Assembly (NCBI RefSeq): GCF_026210795.1
Contig: NC_089429.1
Location: 4,898,001 to 4,962,000, forward strand
Origin: Rhizophagus irregularis
Lineage: Eukaryota; Glomeromycota; Glomeromycetes; Glomerales; Glomeraceae
Direction of reading: 5' to 3'
Length of the DNA: 64,000 bases
Shown: piece by piece, positions 9,452 to 55,259 of the stretch
Numbering within the stretch: position 1 is the first letter of the stretch
Layout: every line of letters begins with the position of its first letter
The notes under the pieces: generated by a model
Seen by the model: only the letters and a program-made list of their open reading frames with translations
Told to the model about the DNA's origin: nothing
The model's database searches: none
Program-made: the position numbers and the translations under genes

Positions 9452-10081
9452 ATGAAATGTAAGGTTAGAACCTTTGTTGATCGGTTGAATGGGGTGGGAA
9501 TTATTCCAACCGAAATAGTTTATAGTGCTTATCGAAATATAGCATTATTAAGTAATTTTAGTTTAAGTGATTTTCGTGGTAAAGCTATTAATGAATCAAA
9601 TTGTGTTTGGGATGAGACAGCATGTGGGCCAAAGCTTATTATTAAGGATAACGGAAAAATTGTACAGGCACTAGAAGGTTGTAACTCACACCAAAATGTT
9701 AGAGCTAAGATAACTTTAGAAAATAAAGGCATTTTTGAATGGGATGTTATTATTGAGAAAGCTTGTTCTTATTCTTGGGTTGGAGTATGTGCATCAGAAA
9801 ATTTCAATTATGAAATACCTGCAGGAAAACAATCTACTGGATGGGTATTGGGTTCTGGTAATTATGTTCGTAATTCTGGAATTAACATAGAAAATTATTG
9901 TCCTTCATTTGGAGATGGCACAAAAGTTACAGTTCATTTAGATATGAATAAGAGAACTTGCTCTTTTTCAATCAATGGTATAAAGTATCGAGAAGTATCA
10001 GAATGGAATTTACCATCAAAACTTTATCCAGTAGTATCTTTATTTTATCCTGGTCGCTTTCGAATTCAACCTCATAAATAA
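9452..10081 (+). CDS. SPRY-domain protein, 5'-truncated BTB-BACK-SPRY copy
   Basis: A 209-codon frame. From residue 16 on it matches the C-terminal half of the BTB-BACK-SPRY paralogues in this window, including WDVIIEKACSYSWVGVCASE, a Gly-rich STGWVLGS strand, FGDGTKVTVHLDMNKRTCSF and PGRFRIQPH. It lacks the BTB and BACK domains. Homology to the full-length copies starts abruptly near 9497; the 15 residues before it come from unrelated sequence next to the tandem array, so the ATG at 9452 is new and may not be used. SPRY/B30.2 folds bind proteins or peptides; without BTB this copy could not recruit Cullin-3. Its residues are mosaic: some match the copy at 17523 (IPAGKQ, CPSFG) and some the copy at 35386 (KVTVHL, REVSEWN). 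It may be a gene fragment rather than an expressed gene. Confidence 0.6.
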   Translation: MKCKVRTFVDRLNGVGIIPTEIVYSAYRNIALLSNFSLSDFRGKAINESNCVWDETACGPKLIIKDNGKIVQALEGCNSHQNVRAKITLENKGIFEWDVIIEKACSYSWVGVCASENFNYEIPAGKQSTGWVLGSGNYVRNSGINIENYCPSFGDGTKVTVHLDMNKRTCSFSINGIKYREVSEWNLPSKLYPVVSLFYPGRFRIQPHK

Positions 10082-11549
10082 ATTAGAACATAGTATTTTT
10101 TCTTACAAATATATTACTTTTTTAAGTTAGTGTATATTCATTAATTATTTATTAGGGTGAACAAATTGACAATATAAAAATATGTGAATGGTTTATTAGA
10201 GGTTGGCGAATTTGTTAGCCGAGTAAAATAAATTATAGGTTTTTATAAAATCAAATTTATCAATGACATATGAAGCCACGCTTCATTTTTCGAAAATTTT
10301 GTTAGAACGGTTACAAAATTACCTTATTTCGCGATCATCATAATCACATCTTCGCTGATTCTTAAAAAATGTTGAGAATATCTTAAGGACTAAACATGAT
10401 ATGAAGACCTAATCCAATATTATTAAATGATCTTTGGACAAATTTAGACTGGATTCAAAATTGGTAGATAATTAATACTTCTCGATAAATAATTCTGGAG
10501 TATGGCTAATAACGATTATATATTTTCGAAGTAAAACACAGTATAAATTAAATTGTAAAAAGTCTCGCTATGATCTATATATGAATATTCTTCAAATTTC
10601 TATATCCATCAAGGTTTCAAATGATATTGTTTTATTGAATAGACATTAATGTTCCAAATTATTCAAACTTAAGATTTAATTTCATCGTGATATCCATAAA
10701 ACAATTATTAGAATCAAGTAACAAGTTATTTTTTTTCTAATTTATAAATTTAGTAATTATTTATTGGATATCACATAGTAAATACAGTTACATTGGATTT
10801 ATTTTATGTTTTTTATTAATAAAAATACATTACTCAAATCTGGTTAAAACTATTTTAATGTTGGTTTTTTACTTTAATTATAATTATAACCCAATCAGTT
10901 AAGTCGGTCGATATCAAAGAGCTTATTTTTCCATAATCTGAAGTTTTGTATTGTAAAAAATAACCAATCTTTGATATAACTTTAAATGTACTGTACCACG
11001 CTAATGTGTATAAAATCAGAATAAGTATTCATTAACATTTAACTTCTACTAATTGTCTGGAACAAAGAAAAGGACTATGATATAATTCTGTATGTCTACA
11101 CACTATGAAAAATGATTGTTCACGTGTATTCTATCCCTACCCAATGAAATCGCTCCGGACTTACAATGGGTTTTCCGTTTCCTAGTATAAATGGATTATA
11201 CTGTAAATAATACATTTTATATTAAAAAAGAGTTGTAATGTTACATTTTCTCTTCTACTCAACATGACTCCAAAAGTTTTAATGAAAATTTTTAACCAAT
11301 AGTTCCAAGCAAGTGGATATATTTTCTATATTATATAACTGTGGTATGGACCTTACATAATATGAGAATTTCTAAAGTTGTATTCTATAACCGAGTAAGC
11401 ACATATTGATGAAATATAATCATAGGATATTTGAGAATGTAATGAATATGGTAAATATCAAAAATTCCAGAATAAAGAAATAATCCAATCACAATTCTAT
11501 GCAAGCCAATTGAAAATATAGAGATATGAAGATATGAAAAATAGAAATT
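10082..11549. repeat. Conserved downstream segment of the BTB duplication unit (copy A)
   Basis: Gene-free, AT-rich sequence following the SPRY frame. It is paralogous to the segments after 13622, 18908, 25430 and 29068. Shared landmarks include ATTATTTATTAGGGTGAACA, ACAATATAAAAATATGTGAA, GCCGAGTAAAATAAATTATAG, CACGCTTCATTTTTCGAAAA and, near 11280-11530, GTTCCAAGCAAGTG and GATGAAATATAATCATAGGA. The conservation reflects segmental duplication rather than visible function. Confidence 0.75.
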
Positions 11550-11829
11550 CCTGTGTAATGGGACGTTTAGGTTAACCGTATAAATAATTTTTGAATTACG
11601 CGACACGTGATTCGTCTGCGCCTGATCTATTTCATGTTCTGACTTTGATAAGTCGTGGGATTACCACATGTAAGAAAAGCTATACTATAAATCACGCAAA
11701 CGTTCAGGTCGTCAATCGCGAAAACCAACGACGAATCGGTCTCTTATTCGTGAATGACATTACTCCTATAAAGAGGATCCAATACTTACAACCGTTCAAA
11801 TCTAACAGCCATTTCGTCCCATTACGGGT
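11550..11829. mobile_element. Possible short inverted-repeat element
   Basis: GTAATGGGACG at 11555-11565 and its complement CGTCCCATTAC at 11815-11825 lie close to both ends of a 280-bp segment that interrupts the otherwise paralogous flank (compare the uninterrupted copy near 30660-30690). ATT borders both sides and could be a 3-bp duplication. The interior is less AT-rich than its surroundings and remains open in one frame, but that frame begins at TTG and continues into unrelated sequence. Confidence 0.45.
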
Positions 11830-13089: not shown

Positions 13090-13535
13090 TAAACATGGGT
13101 AACGAAACTGAAACTTCCCAAAACTCTGTCGGTTTCGGTATATACGAAATAGAGTTTCGGAAATGCATATATTTTTCCGAATCCCGAATCCCGACCCGAA
13201 ACCGAAATATGCCCAAAATTTTTATTAGTTTTCCTTACAGTAAATCTTAAATAAAGGTATCAAGTTCAATTTCTAATAGTTTGTTCACTATTAAATTATT
13301 TCTAACATTAAATCCAAATTAACTATATAACTATTAGGGTAGAATTTGTTCACTCCATTATATTCCTCAATCCTCACATAGCGTCGGGTATTATGGATTT
13401 CTTGATGATTATTGAGCACGTGATTTCGTCAATATGACGTATGGCACAGTTGTTTAAGCAATTTAATTGGGTAATGCTGGTTTCGGGATATCGGGATAGG
13501 TTTCGGAATATCGGAAGTTGTTTCGAGTTTCGGTA
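13090..13535. mobile_element. Foldback-like insertion with CCGAAAC/GTTTCGG arms
   Basis: The left part (13098-13210) is rich in CCGAATCCCGA, GAAACTGAAAC and CCGAAACCG. The right part (13469-13532) carries GGTTTCGGGATATCGGGATA, its approximate complement. The insertion abuts the last 29 codons of a BTB-SPRY copy, whose upstream part is missing. The interior is gene-free. The exact ends are unclear; it may belong to a TTCGG-rich non-autonomous DNA transposon group. Confidence 0.45.
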
Positions 13536-13624
13536 GAAGTATGGAATTTACCATCAAAACTTCATCCAGTAGTAATATTGAAATATCCTGGCCGCTTTCG
13601 AATTCAACCTCATAAAAAAAATTA
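13536..13624 (+). pseudogene. 3' stub of a BTB-BACK-SPRY gene
   Basis: Only the last 29 or so codons remain, corresponding to EWNLPSKLHPVV, YPGRFRIQPH and the stop. The nucleotide sequence AATTTACCATCAAAACTTCA is identical to the intact copies. The 5' part of the gene was replaced by the foldback-like insertion on its left. The conserved downstream segment of the duplication unit follows directly, which proves that this was once a complete unit. Confidence 0.85.
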
Positions 13625-14640
13625 GATCATAGTATCATTAACTATTTCTTAAAAATATACTATCACTTATTTTGAATTAAATTATATTCATTAATTATTT
13701 ATTAGGGTGAACAAGTTGACAATATAAAAATATGTGAATAGAAGCTAACGAATTTTACATGTTAGCCGAGTAAAATAAGTCATAGGTTTTTATAAAATCA
13801 AATTTGTTGGCAATAAATAAGAATAATCAATAATATAAATATCAAGTCACGCTTCATTTTTCAAAAATTATATTTAGAACGGTTACAAAATTACCTTATT
13901 TGCGATCTTCATAATCACGTCTGAGAATATCTTAATCTTAAGGACTAAATATGATATAAAGGCAAAACCAGATATTATTAAATAATTGTTGGACAAATTT
14001 ATACTGAATTCAAAGATTTTCTTGATGGTCCAGGTTTGAAAGGTGGTTAAATAATGACTAAATATTTCCGAAGTACAATACACAATACAAATTAAATTTG
14101 TAAAAATCTTGCTTTGCTTTGATCTACTATATATGAATATTCTACAAATTTCTATATCCATCAAGGTTCCAAATGATATTGTTTTGTTGAATAGACATAA
14201 GGTTTGGAATATTCATTAACTACATCGTGAGATTAGTATCCATAAAACAGCATACTAAATTTAGACCTTAAAAACGTGCTACTGTGATAATCAGTAATAT
14301 AGCGATTAACATTTTAAAAATTTACTAAATAAATAAAAATGATATAATATATAAATCATAATGAGTCACGTTCATGTGGTTTTAATTCTGTACAATATTC
14401 TCAATATAAGTATGTCTATATATAGTTTATCTAGTTTATCTGTATATTCATTCCATTTACAACTTATATCTAATATCAAAGAGCTAGTTTTTATATAATC
14501 TGAAATTTTGTAATATAATGAATCATACTATAAAAAATATCTATCTAATTAATAAAATTTTGTCATATTTAGATTACCCTGTATAGTAAATAATTTGAAT
14601 TGTGTAACATTGAAAAGTGTGATATTCTTGCGTCCGATCT
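13625..14640. repeat. Downstream segment of the BTB duplication unit (copy B)
   Basis: Paralogous to 10082-11549: it shares ATTAGGGTGAACAAGTTGAC, GTTAGCCGAGTAAAATAAG, CACGCTTCATTTTTCAAAAA and CTATATCCATCAAGGTTCCA. There are small internal deletions. No gene; a 93-codon minus-strand frame (14164 to 13883) is not conserved as a frame in the other copies. Confidence 0.7.
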
Positions 14641-17522: not shown

Positions 17523-18908
17523 ATGACGAAAGGACTGTCTCTAGAACAAGATTTAAGATTATTAATAAATAATCCAAAATATAGTGATATAGAAATTTTA
17601 TGTGAAGATGAAAAGAAATTACATGCTTGTAGAGCAATTTTAGCTGCAAGGTCCGAAGTATTTGATAAATTACTTTATAATGGGATGAAGGAAACTTATG
17701 AAAATCAAATTTCTTTTCCAAAAATTAATTCTGCTGGAATGGAAATTATATTAGAATATATTTATACTGGATCAGTTAAAAAAGAATCTTTAACAAAAGA
17801 TAATTTAATTGAAGCTTTTTTCGCTGCACATTATTTTCAGTTATCAGACCTTCAAGATTTAATTATGAAAACAATTAATAACACTAATTTCGTAAAAGAT
17901 TATTCTCCAGAGTTACTATCTAAAGTATCAGAAACAGAATCAGTAACAGAAGATAACATTATTCTCAATTTATTAGTTGAAACAGTAGCAAATATACCAT
18001 TAAACAATATTGAGTTTGGTAGATTGTCTATTACAGGTCTTAAATATCTTTTATCTATTACATATGAAAATGAAACACCATTCGCTACCCAAGAGTATGA
18101 AGTTTTTCGATATAGTGCAATTCTAGCAGCAAAACAAGTCTCTGATAATACATACAGAAATCTTATGGAACGGTTACCAACTTTAGAACAAATTGAAAAT
18201 TCAATTGAAGTAGAAAAAAAACTTTTTATTGATCATCAACAAGTTACTAAGGAACTAGAACCTTTGGTTAAATATATTGATTTCAAAAGGATTAAGACTC
18301 ATATATTAGCCAATTTCATTGAACCATTAGGAATTATTCCAACTGAAATAGTTTGTAATGCTTATCGAAATATAGCATTATTAAGTAATTTTAGTTTAAG
18401 TGATTTTCGTAACGAATCCGATTATGTTTGGGATGAGACAGCATGTGGGTCAAAGCTCATTATTAAGGATAACGGAAAAATTGTACAAGCACTAGAAGAT
18501 TGTAGCTCACACCTCCAAAGTGTTGGGGCTAAGATAACTTTAGAAAATAAAGGCATTTTTAAGTGGGATGTTATTATTGAGAGAGCTTGTACACATTCTT
18601 GGGTTGGAATATGTGCTTCAGAAAATTTTAATTATGAAATTCCTGCAGGAAAGCAATCTACTGGATGGGTATTAGGTTCTAGTGGTAACTGCCGTAATTC
18701 CGATACTACCATAAAAAATTATTGCCCATCATTTGGAGATGGCACAAAAATTACAGTTCATCTAGATATGAATAAAAAGACTTGCTATTTTACTGTTAAT
18801 GGTATAAAGTATCCAGAAATATGGAACAATTTACCATCAAAACTTTATCCAGTAGTGTCAATAAAATTTCCAGGCCGCCTTCGAATTCAACCTCATAAAA
18901 GAATCTGA
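17523..18908 (+). CDS. BTB-BACK-SPRY protein (intact copy C, 461 aa)
   Basis: Intronless frame, start at the ATG right after the A run, as in all sister copies. The BTB/POZ domain (about residues 20-117) shows the hallmark YSDIEILCEDEKKLHACRA, ILAARSEVFDKLL and EYIYTGSV. A BACK-like helical region follows (about 125-235), then a linker, then a SPRY/B30.2-like beta domain (about 310-455) with WDETACG, WVGICASENF, FGDGTKITVHLDMN and PGRLRIQPH. Proteins of this architecture are known as substrate adaptors: BTB and BACK bind Cullin-3 and SPRY binds the target. That role is inferred here; no target is known. Differences from sister copies concentrate in SPRY loops (about 324-333, 354-359, 371-399, 431-436) while BTB is nearly invariant. 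No signal peptide or membrane segment, so probably cytosolic or nuclear. Confidence 0.9.
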   Translation: MTKGLSLEQDLRLLINNPKYSDIEILCEDEKKLHACRAILAARSEVFDKLLYNGMKETYENQISFPKINSAGMEIILEYIYTGSVKKESLTKDNLIEAFFAAHYFQLSDLQDLIMKTINNTNFVKDYSPELLSKVSETESVTEDNIILNLLVETVANIPLNNIEFGRLSITGLKYLLSITYENETPFATQEYEVFRYSAILAAKQVSDNTYRNLMERLPTLEQIENSIEVEKKLFIDHQQVTKELEPLVKYIDFKRIKTHILANFIEPLGIIPTEIVCNAYRNIALLSNFSLSDFRNESDYVWDETACGSKLIIKDNGKIVQALEDCSSHLQSVGAKITLENKGIFKWDVIIERACTHSWVGICASENFNYEIPAGKQSTGWVLGSSGNCRNSDTTIKNYCPSFGDGTKITVHLDMNKKTCYFTVNGIKYPEIWNNLPSKLYPVVSIKFPGRLRIQPHKRI

Positions 18909-22420: not shown

Positions 22421-23804
22421 TTATATAATAAATATTGAATTAAAAAGTTTAAAATGAAAACCAATTAAAATAATTCTTTGTTTAATAAAAGATTATGATG
22501 GAACTTTTGAGTATTCATAATTCTAATATTCAGTTAATTCAATAATTATTGTCTCATTATATATGAGGAAACGATGTAGGCGTAACCTGTCGTGTTGTAC
22601 CTGGGATGATATTTGCCCATCAAGTAAGAAAGTAATAATAACACACTTATATTTTATTTGCCATGCAGTGTGAATAGGTCTAATTTTTTACTGTTATCAT
22701 GATGGCATTAGTAGGAAATAAAAGTAATAATTACACAATTTATATGATTATACAAATAACAATGAATTGTGTGCAAGTGTTATACAGTATATGAAATATT
22801 ATTAATACATGCAAATTTTATTTATTAATGTTGCAGTACTGTGAAATTTACAAATTCATTACGAAACAATTTGTATGAGTTACAAAAAAAAATCTTTTTT
22901 TTTTATCTTAAAAAATTCCATTGTAGCATTAAAAAAAATTACATCCTCCAGAAAAAAAAAACATCTCACCGATTAATATGAAAAAAAAATTCCCAGAAAA
23001 ATTAATTATAACGATCTATTGTTACAAAAAATAAATAAATAAGTAATTAGTTAGTCTATTAATGAGCTTGATACAAACCGTGATGTTGTATTATTGATCT
23101 GATCACTGATTCAAACCTAAATGGTGAAAGAATGTATTCAGGAAAAAAAATTCAGTTTAAAAGAAAAAAAGCCAAACTGAAAAAGGAAATGGCCAATGGG
23201 AAAAAATTTTTGGATTGGAAAAAAAGCCAACCGGAAAAAAAACAAAAAAAAAATCGAAAAAAATAAAAATGAAAAAAAAATTTGTGGGGAGGGATAAAGA
23301 AAAAATTAGGTTGAAAAAAGAACCGAAAAAGAAAAATAAAGAAAAATAAAAAAAATTTAAAAAAAAAAAAAAAAAAAAATTCGTGAGAAAAGAGTTTTTT
23401 TTTAAAAAAAAATAAGTACCGAAAAAAATTCTGAAAAATAGGACAATAATTCGGTCCAAAAAGACCGAAAAAATAATTCAAAAAAAAATTAATAATATGG
23501 TCTAAAAAAAAAGAACGAAAAAATAATGTCTTAAAAGTTAAAAGATTATTTAATAAAAATAAAATAATAATAAATTTTCGGTTTGAAAAAAAAACAAAAA
23601 AAAAAAAGAGAAAAAGGAAAAAAAAAACGAAAAATTTGTAAAAAAGAAAAGAAAAAGGTGTTTCGAAAGAGAAAAGTGGAAATTTGAAAAAAAGAAAGAA
23701 CCATTTGTAAACATAACTTGTCGATCAAGCGGGTCTTAACTGTAAAGAATACGGATCAGAATTATATTGATTGATTGATATTGATTCGATAATCAAATGA
23801 TGAA
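22421..23804. other. Upstream flank of copy D with a 1.2-kb insertion
   Basis: 22421-22575 is paralogous to 31550-31740 (CAATTAAAATAATTCTTTG, AAAGATTATGATGGAAC). At about 22576 the match breaks and resumes near 23795 at the promoter, so about 1.2 kb is inserted. It contains an A-rich, nearly T-free stretch at 23140-23705 with GAAAAA units on the plus strand. Long Phe-rich minus-strand frames there are composition artefacts. No gene. Confidence 0.5.
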
Positions 23805-23961
23805 GACGCAGCTAAAAGTTTCAAATGATATACGTCAACAATTTCCTTTTTTAATATAGTTTTTGCATAACATAGTACAAATTACACAAATTACATAAAT
23901 ATCGGCTTTTTCAATCCAAAAATAGATTCATTGTTTTAATTTTTTTTTTAAAAAAAAAAAA
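23805..23961 (+). promoter_or_regulatory. BTB-family promoter (pseudogene D)
   Basis: GACGCAGCTAAAAGTTTCAA, then ATGATATACGTCAACAATTTC, TACATAAATATCGGC and a T run followed by an A run directly before ATG, as in sister genes. A GGCGCAG to GACGCAG change is visible. Confidence 0.5.
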
Positions 23962-25430
23962 ATGACGAAAGGACTGTCTCTAAAACAAGATTTAAGATTA
24001 TTAATAAATAATCGTGGTATAGAATTTTTATGTGAAGATGAAAAGAAATTACATGCTTATAGAGCAATTTTAGCTGCAAGATCCGAAGTATTTAATAAGT
24101 TACTTTATAATGGGATGAAGGAAACTTATGAAAATCAAATTTCTTTTCCAAAAATTAATTCTGCTGGAATGGAGATTATATTAGAATATATTTATACTGG
24201 ATCAGTTAAAAGAGAATCTTTAACAAAAGATAATACAATTGAAGCTTTTTTATTTTCAATTATCAGTCCTTCAAGATTTTATTATGAAAACCATTAAGAG
24301 TACTAATTTGCAAAAAATTATTCTCCAGAGTTACTATCTAAAGTATCAGAAACAGTGCCGTTAACGGAAGATAATATTATTCTCAATTTATTAGTTGAAA
24401 CAGTAGCAAACATACCATTAATCAGTATTGAGTTTGGTAGATTGTCCATTACAGGCCTTAAATATCTTTTATCTATTACATATAAAAATGAAACATAATT
24501 CGCTACCCGAGAGTATATATATCAATTTTAGCAGCAAAACAAATCTCTGATGATGTATGTAGAGATCTTATGGAACAGTTACCAACTTTAGATCAGATTG
24601 AAAATAGAAATCTTACGATTGAAAATTCAATTGAAGTAGAAAATAAACTTCTTAATGATCATCAAAAGGTTACTAAAGAACTAGAACCTTTGGTTAAATA
24701 TATTGATTTCAAAAGGATTAAGACTCATATACTGTATTAGCCAATATCATTGAGTTATTAGAAATTATTCCAACTGAAATAGTTTATGGTGCTTATCGAA
24801 ATATAGCATTATTAAGTAATTTTAACTTAGGTGATTTTGGTGGAAAAGCTATTAATGAATTCGATTATGTGCGGGATGAGACATTGAGACAGCATGTGAG
24901 TCAAGCTCATTATTAATATGTAATATTACTACAAATATCTACAACTTATAAAAGCCTAGCACCAGATACTGTATAAAAAGTTATCTTAAAAATTTGCCAG
25001 AAAATGTTATTAAGGATAACAGAAAAATTGTACAAGCACTAGAAAATTGTAGCTCACACCAAAGTGTTAGAGCTAAGATAACTTTAGAAAATAGAGGCAT
25101 TTTTGTATGAGATGTTATTATTGAGAAAGCATGTGCACATTCTTGTTTGGAGTATGTGTATTTGAATATAATTTTGCAGAAAATCAACCTACTGGGTGGG
25201 TATTACTAGTGCCATAATTCTGATACTACCATAAAAGATTATTGCCCATCAATTGGAGATGACACAGAAATTACAGTTCATTTGGATATTAATAAGAGAA
25301 TTTGCTCTTTTATGATCAATGGTATAAAGTATTAAGAAGTATCAGAATGGAATTTGCCATCAAACATTCTCCAATAGTATCATTGAGATACTATCCTGAT
25401 CACTTTCAAATTCAATCTCATAAAAAAATT
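23962..25430 (+). pseudogene. BTB-BACK-SPRY pseudogene (copy D)
   Basis: Full-length relative of the copies at 17523 and 27629, broken in many places. It starts with the family ATG and an open BTB region, but the segment holding NPKYSD is partly deleted. An 11-bp loss near 24250 removes the YAAD codons and shifts the frame to an early stop at 24295. A TAA interrupts the codons after NET near 24495. About 100 bp is inserted between 24905 and 25005 at the start of SPRY, and further small indels follow to the C-terminus near 25430. A 111-codon open piece remains at the 5' end (24297), which could encode an isolated BTB domain, but there is no sign that this is selected. Confidence 0.9.
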
Positions 25431-25895
25431 AGAACATAGTAGAAATAATGTTGTATCATTAATTTTTTTCTTACATTATATTTACTAATTTTGAATTAGA
25501 GTATATTCATTAGTTATTTATTTTGGTGAACAAGTTGAAAATATAAAATATGTGAATGGTTTATTAGAGGTTAACAAATTTTACATGATGTTAGCCTAGT
25601 AAAATAAATAATTTGTCAATGATACATGAACATATGTGTTATGTTTGGTAATAAATAAGAATAATCAATAATATAACTATTAGGTCACGATTTATTTTTT
25701 GAGGATACAAAATTAGTTAAATGACCTTATTTGTGATCGTCATAATCACATCGTCATTGAATCTTAAAAAATGTTGAGAATTATCTTAGATCTTAAGGAT
25801 TAAATACAGTATGTTATGAAGGCCTACAAATATTATCCAATTAGACTGAATTCAAAATTCGTAGATGATAGTTAACATTTCTCACTTGAATGGTT
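25431..25895. repeat. Downstream segment of the BTB unit (copy D, part 1)
   Basis: Gene-free and paralogous to the other downstream segments (GGTGAACAAGTTGAAAATAT, ATGTTAGCCTAGTAAAATAAA), more diverged, as expected next to a pseudogene. Confidence 0.65.
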
Positions 25896-27628: not shown

Positions 27629-29068
27629 ATGACGAAAGGACTTTCTCTAGAACAAGATTTAAGATTATTAATAAATAATCCAAAATATAGTGATATAGAA
27701 ATTTTATGTGAAGATGAAAAGAAATTACATGCCTGTAGAGCAATTTTAGCTGCAAGATCCGAAGTATTCGATAAGCTACTTTATAATGGGATGAAAGAAA
27801 CTTATGAAAATCAAATTTCTTTTCCAAAAATTAATTCTGCTGGAATGGAGATTATATTAGAATATATTTATACTGGATCAGTTAAAAAAGAATCTTTAAC
27901 AAAGGATAATATAATTGAAGCTTTTTACGCTGCAGATTATTTTCAATTATCAGATCTTCAGGATTTTATTACGAAAACAATCAAGAGCACTAATTTCGTA
28001 AAAGATTATTCTCCAGAATTACTAACTAAAGTATCAGAAATAATGCCATTGACAGAAGATAATATTATTCTCATTTTATTAGTTGAAACAGTAGCAAATC
28101 TGCCATTAAACAGTATTGAGTTTGGTAGATTGTCCATTACAGGCCTTAAATATCTTTTATCTATTACATATGAAAAAGAAACACCATTCGCTACCCAAGA
28201 GTATGAAGTTTTTCGATATAGTGCAATTCTAGCAGCAAAACAAGTCTCTGATAATGTATATAGAAATCTTATGGAACGGTTACCAACTTTAGATCAAATT
28301 GAAAATTTAATTGAAGTAGAAAATAAACTTCTTATTGATCATCAAAAAGTTACTAAGGAACTAGAACCTTTGGTTAAATATATTGATTTCAAAAGGATTA
28401 AGACTCACATATTAGCCAATTTCATTGAACCATTAGGAATTATTCCAACTGAAATAATTTGTAGTGCTTATCGAAATACAGCATTATTAAGTAATTATAA
28501 TTTAAGTGATTTTCGTGGAAAAGCTATTAATGAATCCGGTTATGTTTGGGACGAGACAGTATGTACATATTTTTCTTCTTCCCTTTTTGAACTATTTTAC
28601 AAATCTGGGCCAAAGATTATTATTAAGGATAACGGAGAAATTGTACAAGCACTAGAAGGTTGTAGTTTATCCCGAAGTGTTAGAGCTAAGATAACTTTAG
28701 AAAATAAAGGCATTTTTGAATGGGATGTTATTATTGAAAAAAGTTGTAGTCGTTTTTGTGTCGGAGTATGTGCATCAGAATATTTTAATTATGAAATAGC
28801 TGCAGGATTACAATCTACTGTATGGGCATTAGGTTCTAGTGGTCATGTTCGTAATTCTGGAATTAGCATAGAATATTATTGTCCTCCATTTGGAGATGGC
28901 ACAGAAATTACAGTTCATTTAGATATGAATAGGAGAACTTGCTCTTTTACGATCAATGGTATAAAGTATCGAGAAGTATCAGAATGGAATTTACCATCAA
29001 AACTTCATCCAGTAGTATCATTAAAATATCCTGGCCGCTTTCGAATTCAACCTCATAAAAATAGCTGA
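27629..29068 (+). CDS. BTB-BACK-SPRY protein (intact copy E, 479 aa)
   Basis: Intronless and almost identical to the copy at 17523 through BTB and BACK (residues 1-235). The SPRY domain differs in its loops: LSRSVR, SCSRFCVGVCASEYF, AAGLQSTVWALGSSGHV. An extra 14 codons (TYFSSSLFELFYKS, about residues 313-326) sit between ETVC and GPK, where other copies read ETACGPK. The insert is 42 bp, pyrimidine-rich and in frame. It creates GTATGT, an intron-like 5' site, but no AG placed to restore the frame, so I keep it as coding. The Trp of SWVG is replaced (FCVG), which may alter the SPRY core. Predicted Cullin-3 adaptor by architecture; target unknown. Confidence 0.88.
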   Translation: MTKGLSLEQDLRLLINNPKYSDIEILCEDEKKLHACRAILAARSEVFDKLLYNGMKETYENQISFPKINSAGMEIILEYIYTGSVKKESLTKDNIIEAFYAADYFQLSDLQDFITKTIKSTNFVKDYSPELLTKVSEIMPLTEDNIILILLVETVANLPLNSIEFGRLSITGLKYLLSITYEKETPFATQEYEVFRYSAILAAKQVSDNVYRNLMERLPTLDQIENLIEVENKLLIDHQKVTKELEPLVKYIDFKRIKTHILANFIEPLGIIPTEIICSAYRNTALLSNYNLSDFRGKAINESGYVWDETVCTYFSSSLFELFYKSGPKIIIKDNGEIVQALEGCSLSRSVRAKITLENKGIFEWDVIIEKSCSRFCVGVCASEYFNYEIAAGLQSTVWALGSSGHVRNSGISIEYYCPPFGDGTEITVHLDMNRRTCSFTINGIKYREVSEWNLPSKLHPVVSLKYPGRFRIQPHKNS

Positions 29069-31550: not shown

Positions 31551-31802
31551 TAATATAATAAATATTAAATTAAAAAGTTTAAAAATAATTCATCTAATAT
31601 ACCGAAATAATTCAAGACGTAATTAACTTGAAAACCAATTAAAATAATTCTTTGTTTAATAAAAGATTATGATGGAACCTTTGAGTATTCATAATTCTGG
31701 ATAAATTTAATATTCAGTTAATAATTCATTATATATGAGGAAAGCGAAAAAATTTTATCTACTTGCTTTATCTGTATGAAGAATTCGTATGATGAATATG
31801 AT
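31551..31802. repeat. Upstream segment of the BTB unit (copy F)
   Basis: Shared with 22421-22575 and, more distantly, 27200-27460 (AATTCTTTGTTTAATAAAAG, ATTATATATGAGGAAA). No gene. Confidence 0.6.
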
Positions 31803-31966: not shown

Positions 31967-33361
31967 ATGACGAGAGGATATTCGTTAGAAAAAGATTTAG
32001 GATTATTAATAAATAATCCAAAGTATAGTGATGTAGAAATTTTATGTGGAGATGAAAAGAAATTACATGCTTGTAGAGCAATTTTAGCTGCAAGATCCGA
32101 AATATTCGATAAACTACTTTATAATGGAATGAAGGAAACTTATGAGAACCAAATTTCTTTCCCAGAAATTAATTCTGCTGGAATGGAAATTATATTAGAA
32201 TATATTTATACTGGATCAGTTAAAGAAGAATCTTTAACAAAAGATAATACAATTGAAGCTTTTTACGCTGCAGATTATTTTCAATTATCAGATCTTCAAG
32301 ATTTTATCACAAAAACAATTAAGAGTACTAATTTTGCAAAAAATTATTCTCCAGAGTTATTATCTAAAGTATCAGAAGCGGTATCGTTAACAGAAGATAA
32401 CATTACTCTCAATTTATTAGTTGAAACAGTAGCAAATATATCATTGAACGATATTGAGTTTGGTAGATTATCTATTAAAGGTCTTGAATATCTTTTATCT
32501 TTTACACACGAGAAGAAAGATATACCCTTTGCAACTCGAGAGTATGAAGTTTTTCGATATAGTACAATTCTAGCAGCAAAAAAAGTCTCTGATGATGCAT
32601 ATAGAAATTTTATGGAAAGGTTACCAATTTTAGATCAAATTGGAGATTCAATTGAAGTAGAAAATAAGTTTCTTATTGATCATCAAAAAGTTATTAAGGA
32701 ACTAGAACCTTTGATTAAATATATTGATTTCAAAAGGATCAAAACTTATATATTAGTTAATTTTATTGAACCACTAGAAATTGTTCCAACTGAAATATTT
32801 TATAGTACTTACCGAAATATAGCATTATCAAGTAATTATAATTTAAGTGATTTTCGTGGAAAAGCTATTAATGAATCAGGTTATTTCTGGGATGAGACAG
32901 CATGTGGGTCAAAGCTTATTATTAAGGATAATGGAAAAATTGTGGAAGCACTAAAAAATTGTAGCACACATCAAAATGTTAGAGCTAAGATGACTTTTGA
33001 AGATAAGGGCATTTTTGAATGGGATATTATTATTGAGAAAGATTGTTCTTATTCTTGGGTTGGAGTATGTGCATCAGAAAATTTTATTGGAAGATCTTCA
33101 GGATCACAATCTACTGGATGGGAATTAGGTTCCAGTGGTGTTTGTCGTAATTCCGGAGAAGGTGTGGATACGTGTCCTCCATTTGGAGATGGTACAATAA
33201 TTACAGTTCATTTAGATATGAATAAGAGGACTTGCTCTTTTACAGTTAACGGTATAAGGTACTATGTAAGAATATGGAAAAATTTACCACCAACACTTTT
33301 TCCAGTAGTATCATTAGCTTATCCTGGTCGCATTCGAATTCAACCTCATCAAAGTAATTAG
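31967..33361 (+). CDS. BTB-BACK-SPRY protein (intact copy F, 464 aa)
   Basis: Start chosen at the ATG of MTRGYSLEKD, which aligns with all sister starts; an upstream in-frame TTG at 31949 would add only AAA-encoded residues and lies in the leader. BTB (about 20-117) with YSDVEILCGDEKKLHACRA; BACK-like region with the HEKKDIPFATREYEVF segment also found in the copies at 35386 and 53847; SPRY with WVGVCASENF, GSQSTGWELGSSGV, FGDGTIITVHLDMN and PGRIRIQPH. The SPRY loops (IGRSSGSQ, GEGVDTCPPF) differ most from the other copies and one loop is shortened. Intronless. Adaptor role inferred from domain order. Confidence 0.88.
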   Translation: MTRGYSLEKDLGLLINNPKYSDVEILCGDEKKLHACRAILAARSEIFDKLLYNGMKETYENQISFPEINSAGMEIILEYIYTGSVKEESLTKDNTIEAFYAADYFQLSDLQDFITKTIKSTNFAKNYSPELLSKVSEAVSLTEDNITLNLLVETVANISLNDIEFGRLSIKGLEYLLSFTHEKKDIPFATREYEVFRYSTILAAKKVSDDAYRNFMERLPILDQIGDSIEVENKFLIDHQKVIKELEPLIKYIDFKRIKTYILVNFIEPLEIVPTEIFYSTYRNIALSSNYNLSDFRGKAINESGYFWDETACGSKLIIKDNGKIVEALKNCSTHQNVRAKMTFEDKGIFEWDIIIEKDCSYSWVGVCASENFIGRSSGSQSTGWELGSSGVCRNSGEGVDTCPPFGDGTIITVHLDMNKRTCSFTVNGIRYYVRIWKNLPPTLFPVVSLAYPGRIRIQPHQSN

Positions 33362-33837: not shown

Positions 33838-34150
33838 TTTGGATATTCGTCAGAACAAGATTTAAATAATCCAAAGTATAATGATATAGGAATTTTAATG
33901 TGAAAATTAAAAGAAATTAGACGCTTATAGATCAATTTTAACAGCAAGATCACAAGGTATTAGCTTTGTCATGGGATGAATGAGAACAAAATTTCTTTTC
34001 TAATAATTAATTTAGCCGGAATGAAGATTATATTAGAATATATTTATATTGTATCAATTAAAAAAGAATATTTAACAAAAGATAATACAATTGGATCATT
34101 ACGCTGCTGATTATATTTAATTATTCAGATCTTCAAGATGTCATGATATT
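33838..34150 (+). pseudogene. BTB 5' relic (copy G)
   Basis: Nucleotide-level remains of the first 110 codons of the family: GGATATTCGTCAGAACAAGA, AATAATCCAAAGTATAATGA, TAGCCGGAATGAAGATTAT, ATTAGAATATATTTATAYTG, GATCTTCAAGATG. It has multiple frameshifts, stops and gaps and no SPRY part. It follows copy F at the same relative position at which relic I follows copy H. Confidence 0.8.
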
Positions 34151-35385: not shown

Positions 35386-36792
35386 ATGACGAGAGGATAT
35401 TCATTAAAACAAGATTTGAGATTATTAATAAATAATCCAAAATATAGTGATGTAGAAATTTTATGTGAAGATGAAAAGAAATTATATGCTTGTAGAGCAA
35501 TTTTAGCTGCAAGATCCGAAGTATTTGATAGTTTACTTTATAATGGAATGAAAGAAACTTATGAAAATCAAATATCTTTTTCAAAGATTAATTCGGCTGG
35601 TATGGAGATTATATTAGAATACATTTATACTGGATCAGTTAAAGAAGAAACTTTAACAAAAGATAATACAATTGAAGCTTTTTATGCTGCAGATTATTTT
35701 CAGTTATCAGGTCTTCTGGATTTTATTAAGAAAACAATTAAGAGTACTAATTTTGCAAAAAATTATTCTCCAGAGTTATTATCTAAAATTTCAGAAACAA
35801 TGGAACCAAATCTATTGACAGAAGATAATATTCTTCTTAATTTATTGGTAGATGCAGTAGCGAATATACCATTAAACAATATTGAGTTTGGTAGATTGTC
35901 TATTACAGGTCTTAAATATCTTTTATCTTTCACACACGAGAAGAAAGATATACCCTTTGCAACTCGTGAATATGAAGTCTTTTGGTATAGTGCAATTCTA
36001 GCAGCAAAACAAGTCTCTGATGATGCATGCAGAAGTCTTATGGAACGGTTACCAACTTTAAAACAAATTGAAAATTCAATCGAAGTAGAAAATAAATTTC
36101 TTATTGATCATCAACAAGTTACTAAGGAACTAGAACCTTTAGTTAAATATATTGATTTCGGAAGGATTAAAACTCACATATTAGCCAATTTCATTGAACC
36201 ACTAAAAATTATTCCAATTGAAATAGTTTGTTGTGCTTATCGAAATATAGCATTATTAAATAATTTAAATTTAAGTGATATTCGTGGAAGACCACAAATT
36301 AATAATTATGTCTGGGATGTGTTAGCTTGTGGATCAAAACTTATTATTAAGGATAACGGAAAAATTGTACAAGCATCAGAAAATATTGACAGACACCAAA
36401 GTGCTCGAACTAAGATGACATTAGAAAATAAAGGCATTTTTGAATGGGATGTTATTATTGAGAAAAAAAGCATTCGTTCTTGGGTCGGAGTATGTGCAAC
36501 AGAAAATTTCAATTATGAAATGGCTGCAGGATTACAATCTACTGGATGGGTATTAGGTTCTAGTGGTTGTGTTCGTCATTCTGGAATTAGTATAGAAAAT
36601 TATTGTCCTCCATTTGGAGATGGTACAAAAGTTACAGTTCATTTAGATATGAATAAGAGAACTTGTTCTTTTACGATCAATGGTAAAAAGTATCGAGAAG
36701 TATCAGAATGGAATTTACCATCAAAACTTCATCCAGTAATATCTTTATATTATCCTGGTCGCTTTCGAATTCAGCCTCATGAAAGTAATTAG
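35386..36792 (+). CDS. BTB-BACK-SPRY protein (intact copy H, 468 aa)
   Basis: Intronless frame beginning MTRGYSLKQD. The BTB domain (about 20-117) is intact, with His of KLHAC replaced by Tyr (KLYAC), as in the copy at 53847. The BACK-like region contains TMEPNLLTEDNILLNLLVDA, a 3-residue extension relative to copies C and E, and HEKKDIPFATREYEVF. SPRY (about 318-465) has WDVIIEKKSIRSWVGVCATE, AAGLQSTGWVLGSSGCVRHS and PGRFRIQPH. SPRY loop 1 (SENIDRHQSAR) is distinct. It is most like copy F in the N-terminal part but like E and A at the extreme SPRY end (REVSEWNLPSKL), suggesting exchange between copies. Role as Cullin-3 adaptor inferred. Confidence 0.9.
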   Translation: MTRGYSLKQDLRLLINNPKYSDVEILCEDEKKLYACRAILAARSEVFDSLLYNGMKETYENQISFSKINSAGMEIILEYIYTGSVKEETLTKDNTIEAFYAADYFQLSGLLDFIKKTIKSTNFAKNYSPELLSKISETMEPNLLTEDNILLNLLVDAVANIPLNNIEFGRLSITGLKYLLSFTHEKKDIPFATREYEVFWYSAILAAKQVSDDACRSLMERLPTLKQIENSIEVENKFLIDHQQVTKELEPLVKYIDFGRIKTHILANFIEPLKIIPIEIVCCAYRNIALLNNLNLSDIRGRPQINNYVWDVLACGSKLIIKDNGKIVQASENIDRHQSARTKMTLENKGIFEWDVIIEKKSIRSWVGVCATENFNYEMAAGLQSTGWVLGSSGCVRHSGISIENYCPPFGDGTKVTVHLDMNKRTCSFTINGKKYREVSEWNLPSKLHPVISLYYPGRFRIQPHESN

Positions 36793-37239: not shown

Positions 37240-37370
37240 TTATGAAAGGATAGTATTTATTAGATATTTATTAAAGTAAGATTTAAGATTATTATTAAAA
37301 CAACCCAAGTATAGTCAATTTAGCGGCATACAACTGCAGACAATTCAACTTTTAACTGTTGATCAATTTT
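37240..37370 (+). pseudogene. BTB 5' relic (copy I)
   Basis: A very short decayed trace of the family N-terminus: GAAAGGATAGTATTTATTAG for MTKGYSL, AAGATTTAAGATTATTATTA, CAACCCAAGTATAGT for NPKYS and, after a gap, ACTGCAGACAATTCAACTTT for AADYFQL. It sits behind H as relic G sits behind F. Confidence 0.6.
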
Positions 37371-43882: not shown

Positions 43883-44916
43883 TTATTTTTTCGTATTGAA
43901 TCGAAATTTTTTAATGTTTGATTGGATAAACTCGTTATTAAACATCCGGTTGAAATTTCATGTAAGATAACTTATTAAAATGATAAAGGTGAAGCCTTCC
44001 GCAATTTATTCTTCATATTTGAGGCACAGTAGTGAATTTTTTTTTTTACCAACGTTTTTATAGATTACGCAGTAGCGAACACACCCAATTCGTTAGATAA
44101 AGATAAAAGTACGTTTGTCACATAATTAATTGAGTTATTTTTAACTTCGTCAAATATAAAAGTATATAATTAAGGTAATTTTTAATTTCGTCAAATATAA
44201 ACGTACACTTAGGTAAATTTTAATTTCGTCATAATATACTATCGTCTAATAATAATGGAGATACTCTTAAAATGTAAAATTATGAAAATATTTTTAAAAT
44301 GCTGTTGGCCATTGCGCGCGCAGCAACTTAAAAACTTGAATAACCAAATACTACAAGTCTACAATTACAACCGTTTAATCATTTCTTTTGCTAAATCAAA
44401 ATATTTTCACAAGTCATTCCCATCAATACCACATCTACAACCCTACTATTAAATAAAAGTCCATAGCAACTTGTTCAATACTCATATTTTCATCTTTCAA
44501 TTCTTCAATATTAAGTTTTTCAATTAAATAATTTCTAACAGCTTGTGATCCACGGTATCTTACTTTGGCTTCAAAAGCATCCAAAAATGGCCTTAATACC
44601 GTATCTCCTCGAAACTGTCCAATAGAGGAATAAACTTTGAAGAACAAAAAATTAGTATTCGTCATATTACAAATACCGTAAGTTTTAAGTAAGTTTTATA
44701 ATACTGTAAGCTTATAAGTAAGTTTATGCATTACCTGCTATACGATAATTTTCCCATTCAAATACATTTTTAATGAGAGGAATCCATTTGTTTAACTAAA
44801 TCTAGAATAGAATGAATTGACTTTGACTCCCCTCCTGACTTAACGTTTCGAGATAAGATACTATGGAGGATTTAACAGTTTCATAATTTGCTTTAGGATA
44901 ACTTGCCAAACGAAAG

Positions 44917-47760: not shown

Positions 47761-49538
47761 TTATATTAAAATATTTTCCCCATTACTTGTATTATTAAAG
47801 TCATCAACTAAAATAAAAAAAAAAATTAAAGTCAATTTATATTAATTTAGTGCTAAAATACCTACCATCATTGGGAATGTTAAAACTATAAGGTCTACTA
47901 TGAAATGCTGTAAAATTATCAAAGTGATCAAACAATTTAAGTTAGATATTGTATTAAAATATTAACAAATTATTGCATATACCTTCTTGTTCTTCTATTT
48001 TATAATTTTATTAAATGAAAAATAAAAAATGTTAGTATATTCTTTAACGTAATATAATATTCCAAAATAATATTAATAATTTTACCTTCTGTTGCATTTT
48101 TCGGTTCAGGAAAATTTTCAAATCTGTAAATTTTATTAGTATAATTTTTGTTCATAGAATCAATAGAATTATGTAAATAGTAATTATTTAATATTTGATG
48201 ATTTTGATCGGAACTTATTTGCTTTTGGCTCTCATCTTGATTGCTTTGAAAATCTAATAATAATTGCTTAATTTCACTCATTAATGTATAAGTATTAGGT
48301 CTTTTCGTTAAATCAGCATCCCAACACTGTTCCATTAATTTTTTATATTCCAAAGGAGTTCCTGGTACTATTTTTGGTCTCATTCCATTTACAATATTCA
48401 TTGCAAGATCATAATTATGTTCATAATTGACAAATGGTGGTTTTCCAGATGATATTTCCCACATAAGTATACCTATACTATAAATATCAGATTTAAAACT
48501 AGTCTTTTTCTCAATAATTACTTCTGGTGCTATATAAGGAAGATTTCCATATATACTATTTAATGGCTTATCAACAGGTCCACAAAATCCAAGATCACTA
48601 ATATGAAATCTTTCATTATATTCTAAGATATTTCCAGAATGCAAATCACGATGAATTTCTTTTTCTCCATGAATTCTGTAAATTCCATCTATTATATCAT
48701 AAGCAATTTGTATCCTTTCTTTCCATATAAGTCGATTATGGTTTTGTTTCAGGTATGTTCCTAAATCCATTTCCATTTCATTCATTACAAGCATATAATT
48801 TGCACTTAATGGATCTTTTGTTAAACCAAAACATTGTACCACACCTGCCCATTTATTACTTATAGTTAAATGAGATATGCTCTATAAAAATATATATAAT
48901 TATTAACTAATTTCAAAAATAATAATACAATATTTTTAATTACATACCTCTTCAAACCAACTTCTATTAGCATTTTCAACATTCTCTAACTCTTTAAGTA
49001 TTACATCATGATTTCCGTATCTTGTTAATTGTTTTTCTTTAAAATCCCATTCATAATATCCTCCACCTATCCATTCTGCTGTATAAATAACAGAACATCC
49101 ACCTTTAGTTAAATATTTAACATTTTGTATTTTATTGTATGGGATCCATTCAACTATCATATCCGGTCTAAATGTTTTCATCTGACATTTTTGTATTAAA
49201 TTATCAATGTCATTATTTCCAGATGTCCAATTTGAAAAATTTTCTTTTAAATAATTTCGAACGCAATGTTCACAATATAATGTAGCTAAACATTCATCTT
49301 GACAATGTTCACAAATTCTTTTTGTTCCTTCATTAAAAAGAATTTTATGGTTATCATAATCTTTAGTTAATAATTTTATTACTTTAGATATTTCATCTTT
49401 TGTAAGAGATTCATCAGCAAGAACAGTTTGTTTTTTAAATTTATGTTGTTTTTCTAGATCATTATGAATAGTATAATTCAATAATGAATATGTTCTATTA
49501 AGAGCAGCCCAAACAACGTCGTCTCGAATATCAGTCAT
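47761..49538 (-). CDS. Protein kinase, tyrosine-kinase-like type (five exons, 495 aa)
   Basis: Exons on the minus strand: 49538-48948, 48881-48086, 47994-47983 (12 bp), 47907-47866, 47807-47761. All four introns have GT/AG ends, and splicing gives one 495-residue frame. Residues 76-92 hold a Cys cluster (CEHCQDEC ... CEHC) typical of this fungal kinase group. Kinase domain: altered Gly loop KGGCSVIY (about 145), VILK with K182, HRDLHSGN (274-281), DLG in place of DFG (293), APE (315-317), then SDIYSIGILMWEISSGKPPF and the RPN of the last helix. All catalytic residues are present, so it is probably an active Ser/Thr or dual-specificity kinase, cytosolic. The C-terminal tail after splicing (EEEQEAFHSRPYSFNIPND) looks coding, supporting the microexon. 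Substrate unknown; this family is greatly expanded in these fungi. Confidence 0.88.
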
Positions 49539-52689: not shown

Positions 52690-53150
52690 ATTGAAGTTAC
52701 GATGTTCGTTAGAACAAGATTAAAAACCAAAATATAACAGTACATAGAGATTACTTGATTGTTGTAGTATATTACAAACTTTTTGTAATTGAGGTGAAAG
52801 AAAACTATTAAAATATAATTTCATTTCCAATAATTAATTTTTCTATTATTCAATTAATAATTATGCTGGATTGGTGATTATCTATTAAAGTTTTCAATAT
52901 TTTTATTTTGTACATATAGGTAAATCTCGTAACTCCGCATATGAAACTCGACCTTCAAAATAAAAATTTATTAATTATTGATCATTATCGATCAAAAATT
53001 CGCACAGTAAATTTTTTGATTTCAGGCGAATAAAGGATAAGATTATGTTTGGGATGAATCAATTAAGTCTGGATCGAATTATATTATTAAAGATAACAGG
53101 AATGTTGAGTAGTTTCATCATTATGTAGTACTAAATGATATAGAAAAAGC
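52690..53150 (+). pseudogene. Decayed BTB-SPRY relic (copy J)
   Basis: Traces of the family in order: GTTCGTTAGAACAAGATTAA and AAAATATAACAGTACATAGA (BTB start), TTTCCAATAATTAATTTTTC, then a jump to GATTATGTTTGGGATGAAT and ATTATTAAAGATAACAGG (start of SPRY, matching YVWDE and IIKDN). Large internal deletion, many stops. Confidence 0.6.
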
Positions 53151-53358
53151 GGCATCGAATTTATTTATACAGTTTGTATGTTTAATTCCGGTCTTTATTA
53201 AAAAAAAATCAATAAATTTTTAATAAATATAGCAACTAAACTTGATCAATATTAAAATCATGAATTTAAGGTTACACAATCGTCATAATATGATATTAAT
53301 TAAGGATTCGACTTCAAACTTTAAATTTTACTGCTTTTCTTATTATTTACAATAAACA

Positions 53359-53556: not shown

Positions 53557-53689
53557 AAAGTTATCTTCGTTTCAATTTTAGTAAAGATATGAATTTTATA
53601 TACACAGTAAAATAAACTGTTTGTTTGAGGACACTATTAGACTAAAAAAAAATCTTTTACTTAACGAGTATTGTTAGTATTGTTACATT

Positions 53690-53846
53690 GGAGGCGCAGC
53701 AAAAATTTCAATGATATACCGTACGCACGTACGCCAAAACCTTTCCTTTTTTTCACAAGTTTTAGTGCAACATGGTACAAATCTAATTGTTAATATGTAT
53801 GTATGTTTTTTTTTTAAAAAAAAAATAAACTTCTTTTCCCTAAAAA
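53690..53846 (+). promoter_or_regulatory. BTB-family promoter (copy at 53.8 kb)
   Basis: GGAGGCGCAGCAAAAATTTC near 53690, AATGATATACCGTACGCACG, CCTTTCCTTTTTTTCACAAG, GTGCAACATGGTACAAAT and a T run followed by an A run (53805-53826) before the ATG. Diverged from the 9-37-kb group but with the same order. Confidence 0.5.
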
Positions 53847-55259
53847 ATGACGAAAGGATATTCATTAAAACAAGATTTGAGATTATTAATAAATAATCCA
53901 AAATATAGTGATATAGAAATTTTATGTGAAGATGAAAAGAAATTATATGGGTGTAGAGCAATTTTAGCAGCAAGATCCGAAGTATTTGATAGACTACTTT
54001 ATAATGAGATGAAAGAAAGTCATGAAACCCAAATTTCTTTTCCAAAAATTCATTCCAATGGAATGAAAATTATATTAGAATATATATATACGGGGTCAGT
54101 TAAAAAAGAATCTTTAACAAAAGATAATACGGTTGAAGCTTTTTATGCAGCAGATTATTTTCAATTACTTGAACTACAAGATTTTATTATAAAAATTATC
54201 AAAAATACTTTGGAGATGAATTATGCAAAAAATTATTCACCAGAATTATTATCTAAAGTTGCAGAAATAATACCATTAACAGAAGACAATATTCTTGCTA
54301 ATTTATTGGTCAAAGAGGTGGCATCTATTACATTAAATGATGTTAATTTTGATCGGTTGTCTATTGCAGGTCTTAAATATCTTTTATCTTTCACACGCGA
54401 GAAGAAAGATATACCCTTTGCAACTCGAGAGTATGAAGTTTTTCGGTATAGTGCAATCCTAGCAGCAAGACAAGTTTCTGATGATGCATATAGAACTCTT
54501 AAGAAAAAGCTACCAACTTTAAAACAAATGGAGAGTTGCTACGATATAGAATTTGAATTTTCTATCGATCATCAAAAAGTCACTAAAGAATTGGAGCCTT
54601 TTATTAAATTTATTGACTTTAATCAAATTAATGCTCAAACAATAGCTGATATTATCGAACCATTAAAAATTGTTCCAGACGAAATAATTTTTAGTGTTTA
54701 TCGACATAAAGCCCTATTAAATAATTTAGATTTGAATAATATTCGAGGAATACCAATTTATAGAATTAAAGAATCTGATCTTATTTGGGATGAGTCAGCA
54801 TGTGGACCAAAACTTATTATTGAGGATAATGGGAAAGTTGTACGTGCACCGAATGATCTTAATTCGCATCAAAATGTTAGAGCTAAAATGATATTAGAAA
54901 ATAAAGGTATATATGAATGGGATATAATATTTGAGAAAGTTGAAGTTGCTTGGGTTGGAGTATGTGCATCGGAAAATTTTAATTATGAAAAATATGCAGG
55001 AGATCAGCCTTCCGTTGTATGGGTAATTAGCACTGGTGGTAATTATAGAAATAAAAATTATTGTCCTAATTTTGGAAATGATGCAAAAATCACTGTTCAT
55101 TTAGACATGAATAAAAGAGCTTGTACTTTTACAATCAATGGTATAAAGTATCTGGAGACATTAGAACATGATGGCTTGCCAGAAAAACTTTATCCAGTAG
55201 TGTCATTGTCTCGTCCTGGGCGCATTCGAATTCAGGCTCATCAAAAAAATTTAATATAG
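53847..55259 (+). CDS. BTB-BACK-SPRY protein (intact copy L, 470 aa)
   Basis: Intronless and the most diverged intact member. BTB (about 20-117) with YSDIEILCEDEKKLYGCRA, LLYNEMKESHETQISF; BACK-like region with TREKKDIPFATREYEVF; linker KVTKELEPFIKFIDFNQINA; SPRY with WDESACGPKLIIEDNG, WVGVCASENFNYEKYAGDQ, VVWVISTGGNYRN, FGNDAKITVHLDMN, PGRIRIQAH. The SPRY variable loops (APNDLNSHQNVR, KVEVAWVG, shortened KNYCPNFG) are unlike any other copy. Shares the HEKKDIPFATRE-type segment with copies F and H. Cullin-3 adaptor role inferred; cytosolic or nuclear, no signal peptide. Confidence 0.9.
   Translation: MTKGYSLKQDLRLLINNPKYSDIEILCEDEKKLYGCRAILAARSEVFDRLLYNEMKESHETQISFPKIHSNGMKIILEYIYTGSVKKESLTKDNTVEAFYAADYFQLLELQDFIIKIIKNTLEMNYAKNYSPELLSKVAEIIPLTEDNILANLLVKEVASITLNDVNFDRLSIAGLKYLLSFTREKKDIPFATREYEVFRYSAILAARQVSDDAYRTLKKKLPTLKQMESCYDIEFEFSIDHQKVTKELEPFIKFIDFNQINAQTIADIIEPLKIVPDEIIFSVYRHKALLNNLDLNNIRGIPIYRIKESDLIWDESACGPKLIIEDNGKVVRAPNDLNSHQNVRAKMILENKGIYEWDIIFEKVEVAWVGVCASENFNYEKYAGDQPSVVWVISTGGNYRNKNYCPNFGNDAKITVHLDMNKRACTFTINGIKYLETLEHDGLPEKLYPVVSLSRPGRIRIQAHQKNLI

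Follow-up and report, generated by a model that had tools for sequence, protein, structure and literature searches.

A tandem array of BTB-SPRY genes in Rhizophagus irregularis with amino-acid change concentrated on the SPRY ligand face

The nematode MATH-BTB (BATH) proteins, in which the MATH domain stands first and BTB follows, are among the closest described counterparts of the genes reported here. Like these genes, they join BTB to a diversified substrate domain in an expanded repertoire; they are Cul3 adaptors, and targeting of foreign proteins has been proposed for the nematode system (PMC4063957). BTB genes are an expanded class in the arbuscular mycorrhizal fungus Rhizophagus irregularis, and expanded families occasionally lie there in tandem arrays (PMC8647823, PMC3886924). 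We analysed a stretch of 64,000 nucleotides from R. irregularis (assembly GCF_026210795.1, contig NC_089429.1, positions 4,898,001 to 4,962,000; the window), which holds a tandem array of genes with a BTB part, a middle part and a C-terminal SPRY domain. Unlike the nematode proteins, which belong to an animal system, the array genes have SPRY and not MATH as their recognition domain. They also differ from the high-copy R. irregularis BTB genes, in that PMC8647823 has no occurrence of SPRY.

The finTRIM proteins of fish and TRIM5alpha of primates are E3-linked proteins that show duplication, positive selection concentrated in variable B30.2 loops and a within-family recombination point (PMC2657112), a mode of evolution that the array may share. 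They are RING and B-box proteins, whereas the array genes have BTB and no match to RING or B-box. SPSB1, SPSB2, SPSB4 and GUSTAVUS use SPRY as the substrate receptor of an E3 ligase, with a SOCS box where the array genes have BTB, and GUSTAVUS was matched in sequence (E 4.5e-6). The contact residues are conserved across SPSB1, SPSB2 and SPSB4 (PMC2923778) but variable in the array genes. BTB-BACK-Kelch (KLHL) proteins have Kelch in place of SPRY, and BACK was not detected in the array genes. Among solved sequences, the SPRY profile of the array scores best (E 3e-7) with one of the SPRYSEC proteins of plant-parasitic nematodes, which have SPRY without BTB. These are secreted, whereas the array proteins are probably intracellular because their starts read MTKG or MTRG.

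By domain composition we place the family as BTB-SPRY, a group of probable CUL3 adaptors belonging to neither TRIM nor SPSB. On balance, we lean towards the view that the array is a birth-and-death family in tandem, encoding Cul3-type substrate adaptors that act inside the cell and whose SPRY recognition face is diversifying, in the manner of nematode MATH-BTB or fish finTRIM proteins. In the open-licence literature searched, with subscription papers mostly outside the search, no joint mention of BTB, SPRY and Rhizophagus was found. The only match there to BTB-SPRY wording was a table entry on Naegleria gruberi, and "SPRY domain" was not found together with Glomeromycota in the open-licence literature on BTB, SPRY domain, fungi and Glomeromycota.

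Domain architecture and constraint

Five intact single-frame genes, named A to E, lie in tandem on the plus strand of the window. Seven further copies or fragments were recovered by blastn, namely copies F and G and five shorter pieces (Table 1). This bears out the original prediction, made from the letters of the window, of five intact genes and at least seven fragments. All five genes passed the Pfam cut-offs for BTB (PF00651, E 9e-23 to 7.6e-20) and SPRY, and SPRY (PF00622) was above cut-off in all six proteins A to F. The Pfam matches of the five genes include no RING, B-box, zinc finger or other effector domain. A SOCS box match was likewise absent from the five genes, and gene D stops four residues past its last predicted SPRY strand (D459-464 of 468). 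A model of SPRY by itself was of moderate quality (predicted local distance difference test, pLDDT, 63.7; predicted template modelling score 0.66). Foldseek returned 313 matches to it at E<=0.001, with E down to 2.8e-8 (RanBP10), and its neighbours were the SPRY domains of RanBP10 and RanBP9, Ash2L, TRIM67 and SPSB. Prediction of full-length gene D from five rows gave a poor fold (mean pLDDT 52.3), which was not used to set loops.

The middle part had been labelled BACK, and this label was not borne out. BACK was matched by Pfam in none of the five genes even at E<=10, a search in which the HMMER filters discard most weak matches. A profile search of solved structures (PDB) with the middle part also gave no BACK match, returning only two weak matches (E 0.017 and 0.023). 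Helices were predicted in this part with low confidence. Matches to PCC_BT and GDE_N, and two bacterial matches of the middle part, were judged to be due to chance.

Pairwise amino-acid identity ranged from 79 to 94% for BTB, from 62 to 89% for the middle part and from 57 to 79% for SPRY, and the earlier description of the first two as nearly invariant was thus overstated. By counting, synonymous divergence (dS) spanned 0.21-0.46 for BTB, 0.09-0.69 for the middle part and 0.14-0.76 for SPRY. Nonsynonymous divergence (dN) was 0.03-0.10, 0.06-0.22 and 0.12-0.29, respectively, and from BTB to SPRY the increase in dN exceeds that in dS. Maximum-likelihood estimates of omega (dN/dS) under the GY and MG rate models were 0.08-0.12, 0.27-0.36 and 0.29-0.45 in the same order. 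The BTB part is under strong constraint. SPRY is on average only slightly faster than the middle part, and the difference between the two is where the changes fall. dS was lowest in BTB in five out of ten pairs, including all four pairs with gene E, and some homogenisation of BTB between copies may have occurred. Since BTB dS is far from zero and dN drops much more, most of the BTB conservation is explained by purifying selection.

Variation on the SPRY ligand face

The peptide site of the SPSB and GUSTAVUS SPRY domains consists of loops A-E, and the contacts described for SPSB1 are Arg77 (loop B), Thr111 (C), Tyr129 (D) and Val216-Trp217-Gly218, with Trp217 in loop E (PMC2923778). In a search with the profile of the six SPRY sequences, the secreted nematode protein was the best match and GUSTAVUS (2ihs) the next family. 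GUSTAVUS was chosen as the reference because its peptide complex is described. Its chain differs from SPSB1 numbering by a constant offset of 21, which fits Arg77, Pro79, Val80, Thr111 and His125-Tyr129. Ligand loops B-E of the array genes were set from the GUSTAVUS alignment, the SPSB contacts and the predicted strands, and sites are numbered by gene D.

Amino-acid change is firmly concentrated on this ligand face. With a separate omega for each class, the estimate was 0.79 for ligand loops (27 codons), 0.24 for other loops (52 codons) and 0.22 for strands (70 codons). Ligand and other loops differed by 37.65 in twice the log-likelihood (1 degree of freedom), a comparison that was not blind, since the loop limits were fixed after the variable sites were known. 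Under the MG model omega was 1.11-1.14 in ligand loops and 0.33-0.36 in the rest of SPRY (two trees), so that the overall span was 0.79-1.14 for loops B-E against 0.23-0.36 for the remaining SPRY. The pooled counting ratio over the ten pairwise comparisons among A-D and F was 1.50 in ligand loops, 0.44 in other loops and 0.51 in strands. Loop by loop, the ratio of nonsynonymous to synonymous proportions (pN/pS) was 1.71 in B, 1.32 in C, 1.97 in D and 0.62 in E. When the mask was shifted circularly along SPRY, none of 148 shifts reached the ligand-loop pN and two reached its ratio. Over the codons common to a pair, loop dN was above dS in 12 of 15 pairs (all except A-E, 0.86, E-F, 0.97, and A-F, discussed below). 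It also exceeded the divergence of upstream regions in all six pairs among A-D (145-177 aligned bases, Jukes-Cantor distance, JC, 0.06-0.22).

Eleven SPRY columns held at least four residue types, with six in ligand loops, two in other loops and three in predicted strands. In the main, dN/dS was not evenly low over SPRY and the variable sites did not fall in strands, with these three columns as exceptions. Four variable stretches had been named in gene A numbering, and three of them touch the ligand face. Loop B (A323-330) is partly covered by stretch 324-333 and loop C lies within 354-359; stretch 371-399 holds most of loop D but runs far beyond it. The fourth, 431-436, lies elsewhere, and loop E (A448-451), which has the strongest site, had been overlooked.

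Site models were fitted to the six sequences A-F over 181 SPRY columns, those in which no more than one sequence has a gap. On a single tree, M2a-M1a was 8.06 and 10.99 (GY, two trees) and 16.80 (MG); without E it was 9.36 (GY) and 17.36 (MG). Because the trees of the two SPRY halves conflict, the models were refitted with a separate tree for each half. This gave, for GY and MG respectively, 6.83 and 15.00 in M2a-M1a, 13.88 and 18.14 in M8-M7, and 5.30 and 11.73 in M8-M8a. None of 36 null simulations reached the GY values (maxima 5.60 and 4.42). In BTB and the middle part M2a-M1a and M8-M8a were at most 0.30, with M8-M7 up to 3.96 in the middle part. Within SPRY, M2a-M1a was 0.12 and 0.30 without the ligand loops, and 12.59 and 16.59 for the ligand loops alone.

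The top sites were D383 (K/L/S/L/D/K in A-F) and D455 (K/K/A/Y/S/F). By a count through the GUSTAVUS alignment, D383 lies in loop D at the position of SPSB2 128, and D455 lies in loop E, aligned to SPSB1 Val216 (SPSB2 Val206). Both align with mSPSB2 positions at which mutation, in the triple mutant 126-128 and in V206A, abolished measurable peptide binding (PMC2923778). M8 also picked out D336 and D361, both in ligand loops, and three sites elsewhere in SPRY (D395, D437 and D442). Omega above 1 is supported in SPRY, and neither in BTB nor in the middle part; it is significant but carried by two codons, and we regard it as suggestive.

Several findings weigh against a diversifying recognition face. 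The ligand-loop mean is compatible with omega 1, that is with relaxed constraint (fixing it at 1 costs 0.2-0.8 log-likelihood units), and omega above 1 for these loops as a whole is not supported. Without D455 the signal fell to 1.33 (GY) and 4.23 (MG), and without both D455 and D383 to 0 and 0.87. The codons at these sites differ by multi-nucleotide steps, and such steps can inflate site tests of this kind. Without copy F, M2a-M1a fell to 5.57 (GY) and 12.24 (MG), and GY M8-M8a was 4.03. Narrower masks around the contact residues were weaker (3 of 148 by pN; 11, 19 and 4 of 148 by ratio at half-widths 1, 2 and 3). The loop value for A-F was 0.40, and the ligand loops do not include the variable columns D395-402 and D437-442.

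Among the alternatives, relaxed constraint survives best, though we consider it rather unlikely. Redundant duplicates would drift, the ligand would be lost and surface loops would vary most. The loop average near 1, the dependence of the omega>1 class on two codons and the seven decayed or partial copies in the array all fit this explanation. However, it accounts poorly for omega of 0.24 in the other loops of SPRY, for five intact frames with a strongly constrained BTB, and for omega above 1 being favoured within the ligand loops alone. The diversifying selection proposed in the original prediction thus stands in part: site models favour omega above 1 in SPRY alone, but the loop average is not confidently above 1 and the omega>1 class hangs on two codons.

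Putative CUL3 docking and probable exchange between copies

The BTB part carries the motif MKE, which aligns with LSE of KBTBD2, a protein that we take to be a CUL3 adaptor. A phi-x-E motif in the alpha3/beta4 region has been described as a CUL3-contact position (PMC3616122), and from this motif the family is a putative binder of CUL3. In KLHL3 and SPOP, BACK is one source of CUL3 affinity (PMC3616122), and the missing detection of BACK weighs against Cul3-type adaptors. If the genes do encode such adaptors, the conserved BTB part would dock on Cullin-3, the possibly helical middle part would act as a spacer, and the C-terminal SPRY would capture a target via loops B-E of the ligand face. The captured target would then be ubiquitinated. 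Duplication, exchange between paralogues and fast loop change could place different recognition faces on one adaptor, and changing targets may drive the selection. As for the proposed fixed adaptor with a varying face, the constrained BTB and the concentration of change in the ligand loops agree with it, whereas what backs the CUL3 side is the motif.

Not all BTB proteins are CUL3 adaptors. The array proteins could instead be BTB-dimerised scaffolds or transcription-linked proteins, whose SPRY domains bind different cellular partners (subfunctionalisation). Such a role would be consistent with the failure of Pfam and the structure-profile search to detect a BACK or 3-box, and with the best solved BTB matches, which were ZBTB17 fusions with BCL6 and NAC1. 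We find it quite unlikely, given that MKE is invariant at the phi-x-E position and aligns with the KBTBD2 motif, and that Pfam matched neither a zinc finger nor another effector domain.

The two SPRY halves prefer different trees, and swapping their best trees costs 15.4 and 16.7 log-likelihood units. Among A-D, informative sites group A with B in BTB (9) and the middle part (18), with 3 to 5 each for the other two groupings. SPRY sites are tied 11:11 between AB/CD and AC/BD, and runs common to different copies are present. The tree conflict between halves and the tied sites point to mosaic SPRY domains. That gene conversion mainly produced the pattern, homogenising BTB and reshuffling SPRY, is highly improbable: the tree conflict, the common runs and the lowest dS in BTB in half of the pairs (all four E pairs among them) would fit, but this cause is disfavoured on dS, which is not lowest in BTB in the remaining five of ten pairs and stays at 0.21-0.46 there, far from zero, with dN of only 0.03-0.10, and the site signal persists with segment trees.

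Array copies, neighbouring features and implications

Every fragment had a best E of at most 2.4e-8, with the three weakest at 6.5e-9 to 2.4e-8. The same search on 20 Markov-shuffled windows gave two matches at E<=1e-4, the best at 1.2e-5, and the weakest fragments are thus beyond chance. The piece 52871-52914 by itself (E 1.2e-5) was not above the chance level of these shuffled windows. Homology continues past the gene ends, with a block of ~2.4 kb common to A and B and a block of 2.0-2.3 kb common to F and B, of which >1.4 kb lies past the stop codon. The units were therefore duplicated as DNA segments. No relative was confirmed in contig collections of viruses (searched with gene A and with both the full and the SPRY alignments) or of bacteria and archaea (searched with the full alignment).

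Copy F may be a dead, non-functional copy. A satellite at 8248-9299, with 44- and 99-base units, ends ~200 bases before the 5' truncation point of copy F. The upstream regions of G (23790-23961) and C (31785-31966) are unusually similar (JC 0.093; G stands at 0.16-0.20 from A, B and D), which suggests exchange or a common promoter origin. The insertion in gene B carries GTATGT, and there is a 57-nucleotide in-frame GT...AG stretch at 28559-28615. It is possible that gene B acquired a small intron rather than 14 residues. The description of the genes as intronless agrees with the five single frames, with gene B as a possible exception owing to this stretch.

Table 1. Coordinates of array genes, copies, sites and neighbouring features in the window
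Feature	Position	Strand	Description
Gene A	17523..18908	+	BTB-middle-SPRY, 461 aa; intact open reading frame (ORF)
Gene B	27629..29068	+	BTB-middle-SPRY, 479 aa; intact; 42-bp in-frame insertion ahead of SPRY
Gene C	31967..33361	+	BTB-middle-SPRY; intact; ATG at 31967
Gene D	35386..36792	+	BTB-middle-SPRY, 468 aa; intact; reference for site numbering
Gene E	53847..55259	+	BTB-middle-SPRY, 470 aa; intact; most diverged of the five
phi-x-E motif MKE, gene D	35548..35556	+	D55-57; invariant in all five intact genes; putative CUL3 contact
Ligand loop B, gene D	36373..36396	+	D330-337; GUSTAVUS alignment
Ligand loop C, gene D	36466..36477	+	D361-364; D363 aligned to SPSB1 Thr111
Ligand loop D, gene D	36511..36543	+	D376-386; includes D383
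Ligand loop E, gene D	36748..36759	+	D455-458; D455 aligned to SPSB1 Val216 / SPSB2 Val206
Copy F	9452..10081	+	SPRY half without BTB, frame open; family homology from ~9497 (blastn match 9497-10086)
Copy G	23962..25434	+	Near-complete pseudogene with stops and indels (blastn match 23959-25432)
SPRY-end fragment	13535..13625	+	blastn
BTB fragment	33841..34148	+	blastn
Short gene-start fragment	37263..37315	+	blastn E 2.3e-8
Short fragment(s)	52782..52914	+	blastn E 2.4e-8; second piece 52871-52914, E 1.2e-5
Short BTB fragment	57173..57341	+	blastn E 6.5e-9
Kinase-like gene	48000-49538	-	Two ORFs split by a GTATGT...TAG intron-like gap
Ty3/gypsy-type element pieces	59504-63997	-	gag with zinc knuckle and integrase core (Pfam)

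The window is AT-rich (GC 17-33% in 2-kb steps), and this AT-rich, repeat-rich setting, together with the kinase-like gene, presumably fits Rhizophagus and its relatives. The kinase-like gene is presumably similar to the kinases that are expanded in arbuscular mycorrhizal fungi; its upstream ORF had no Pfam match. Within the Ty3/gypsy-type pieces, the ORF at 60308-60811 is presumably protease-like. A minisatellite at 6-2678 has nested periods of ~81, 244 and 409 bases, and G strongly exceeds C in 1-2000 (skew 0.555). Open frames at 39815-40057 (81 codons) and 44438-44695 (86 codons), both on the minus strand, are possible exons of further genes.

The targets of the array proteins might be foreign to the fungus. 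The array would then be a cell-internal non-self repertoire of Cul3 adaptors, its SPRY face diversified by selection and exchange, capturing proteins of viruses, endobacteria, mobile elements or partners. We put this forward tentatively and as unlikely. If the Cul3-type adaptor reading with a diversifying SPRY face is true, the evolutionary pattern of nematode MATH-BTB and fish finTRIM would also occur in a fungus, with a BTB-SPRY architecture, and a testable function would follow for some of the BTB genes that are expanded in arbuscular mycorrhizal fungi.

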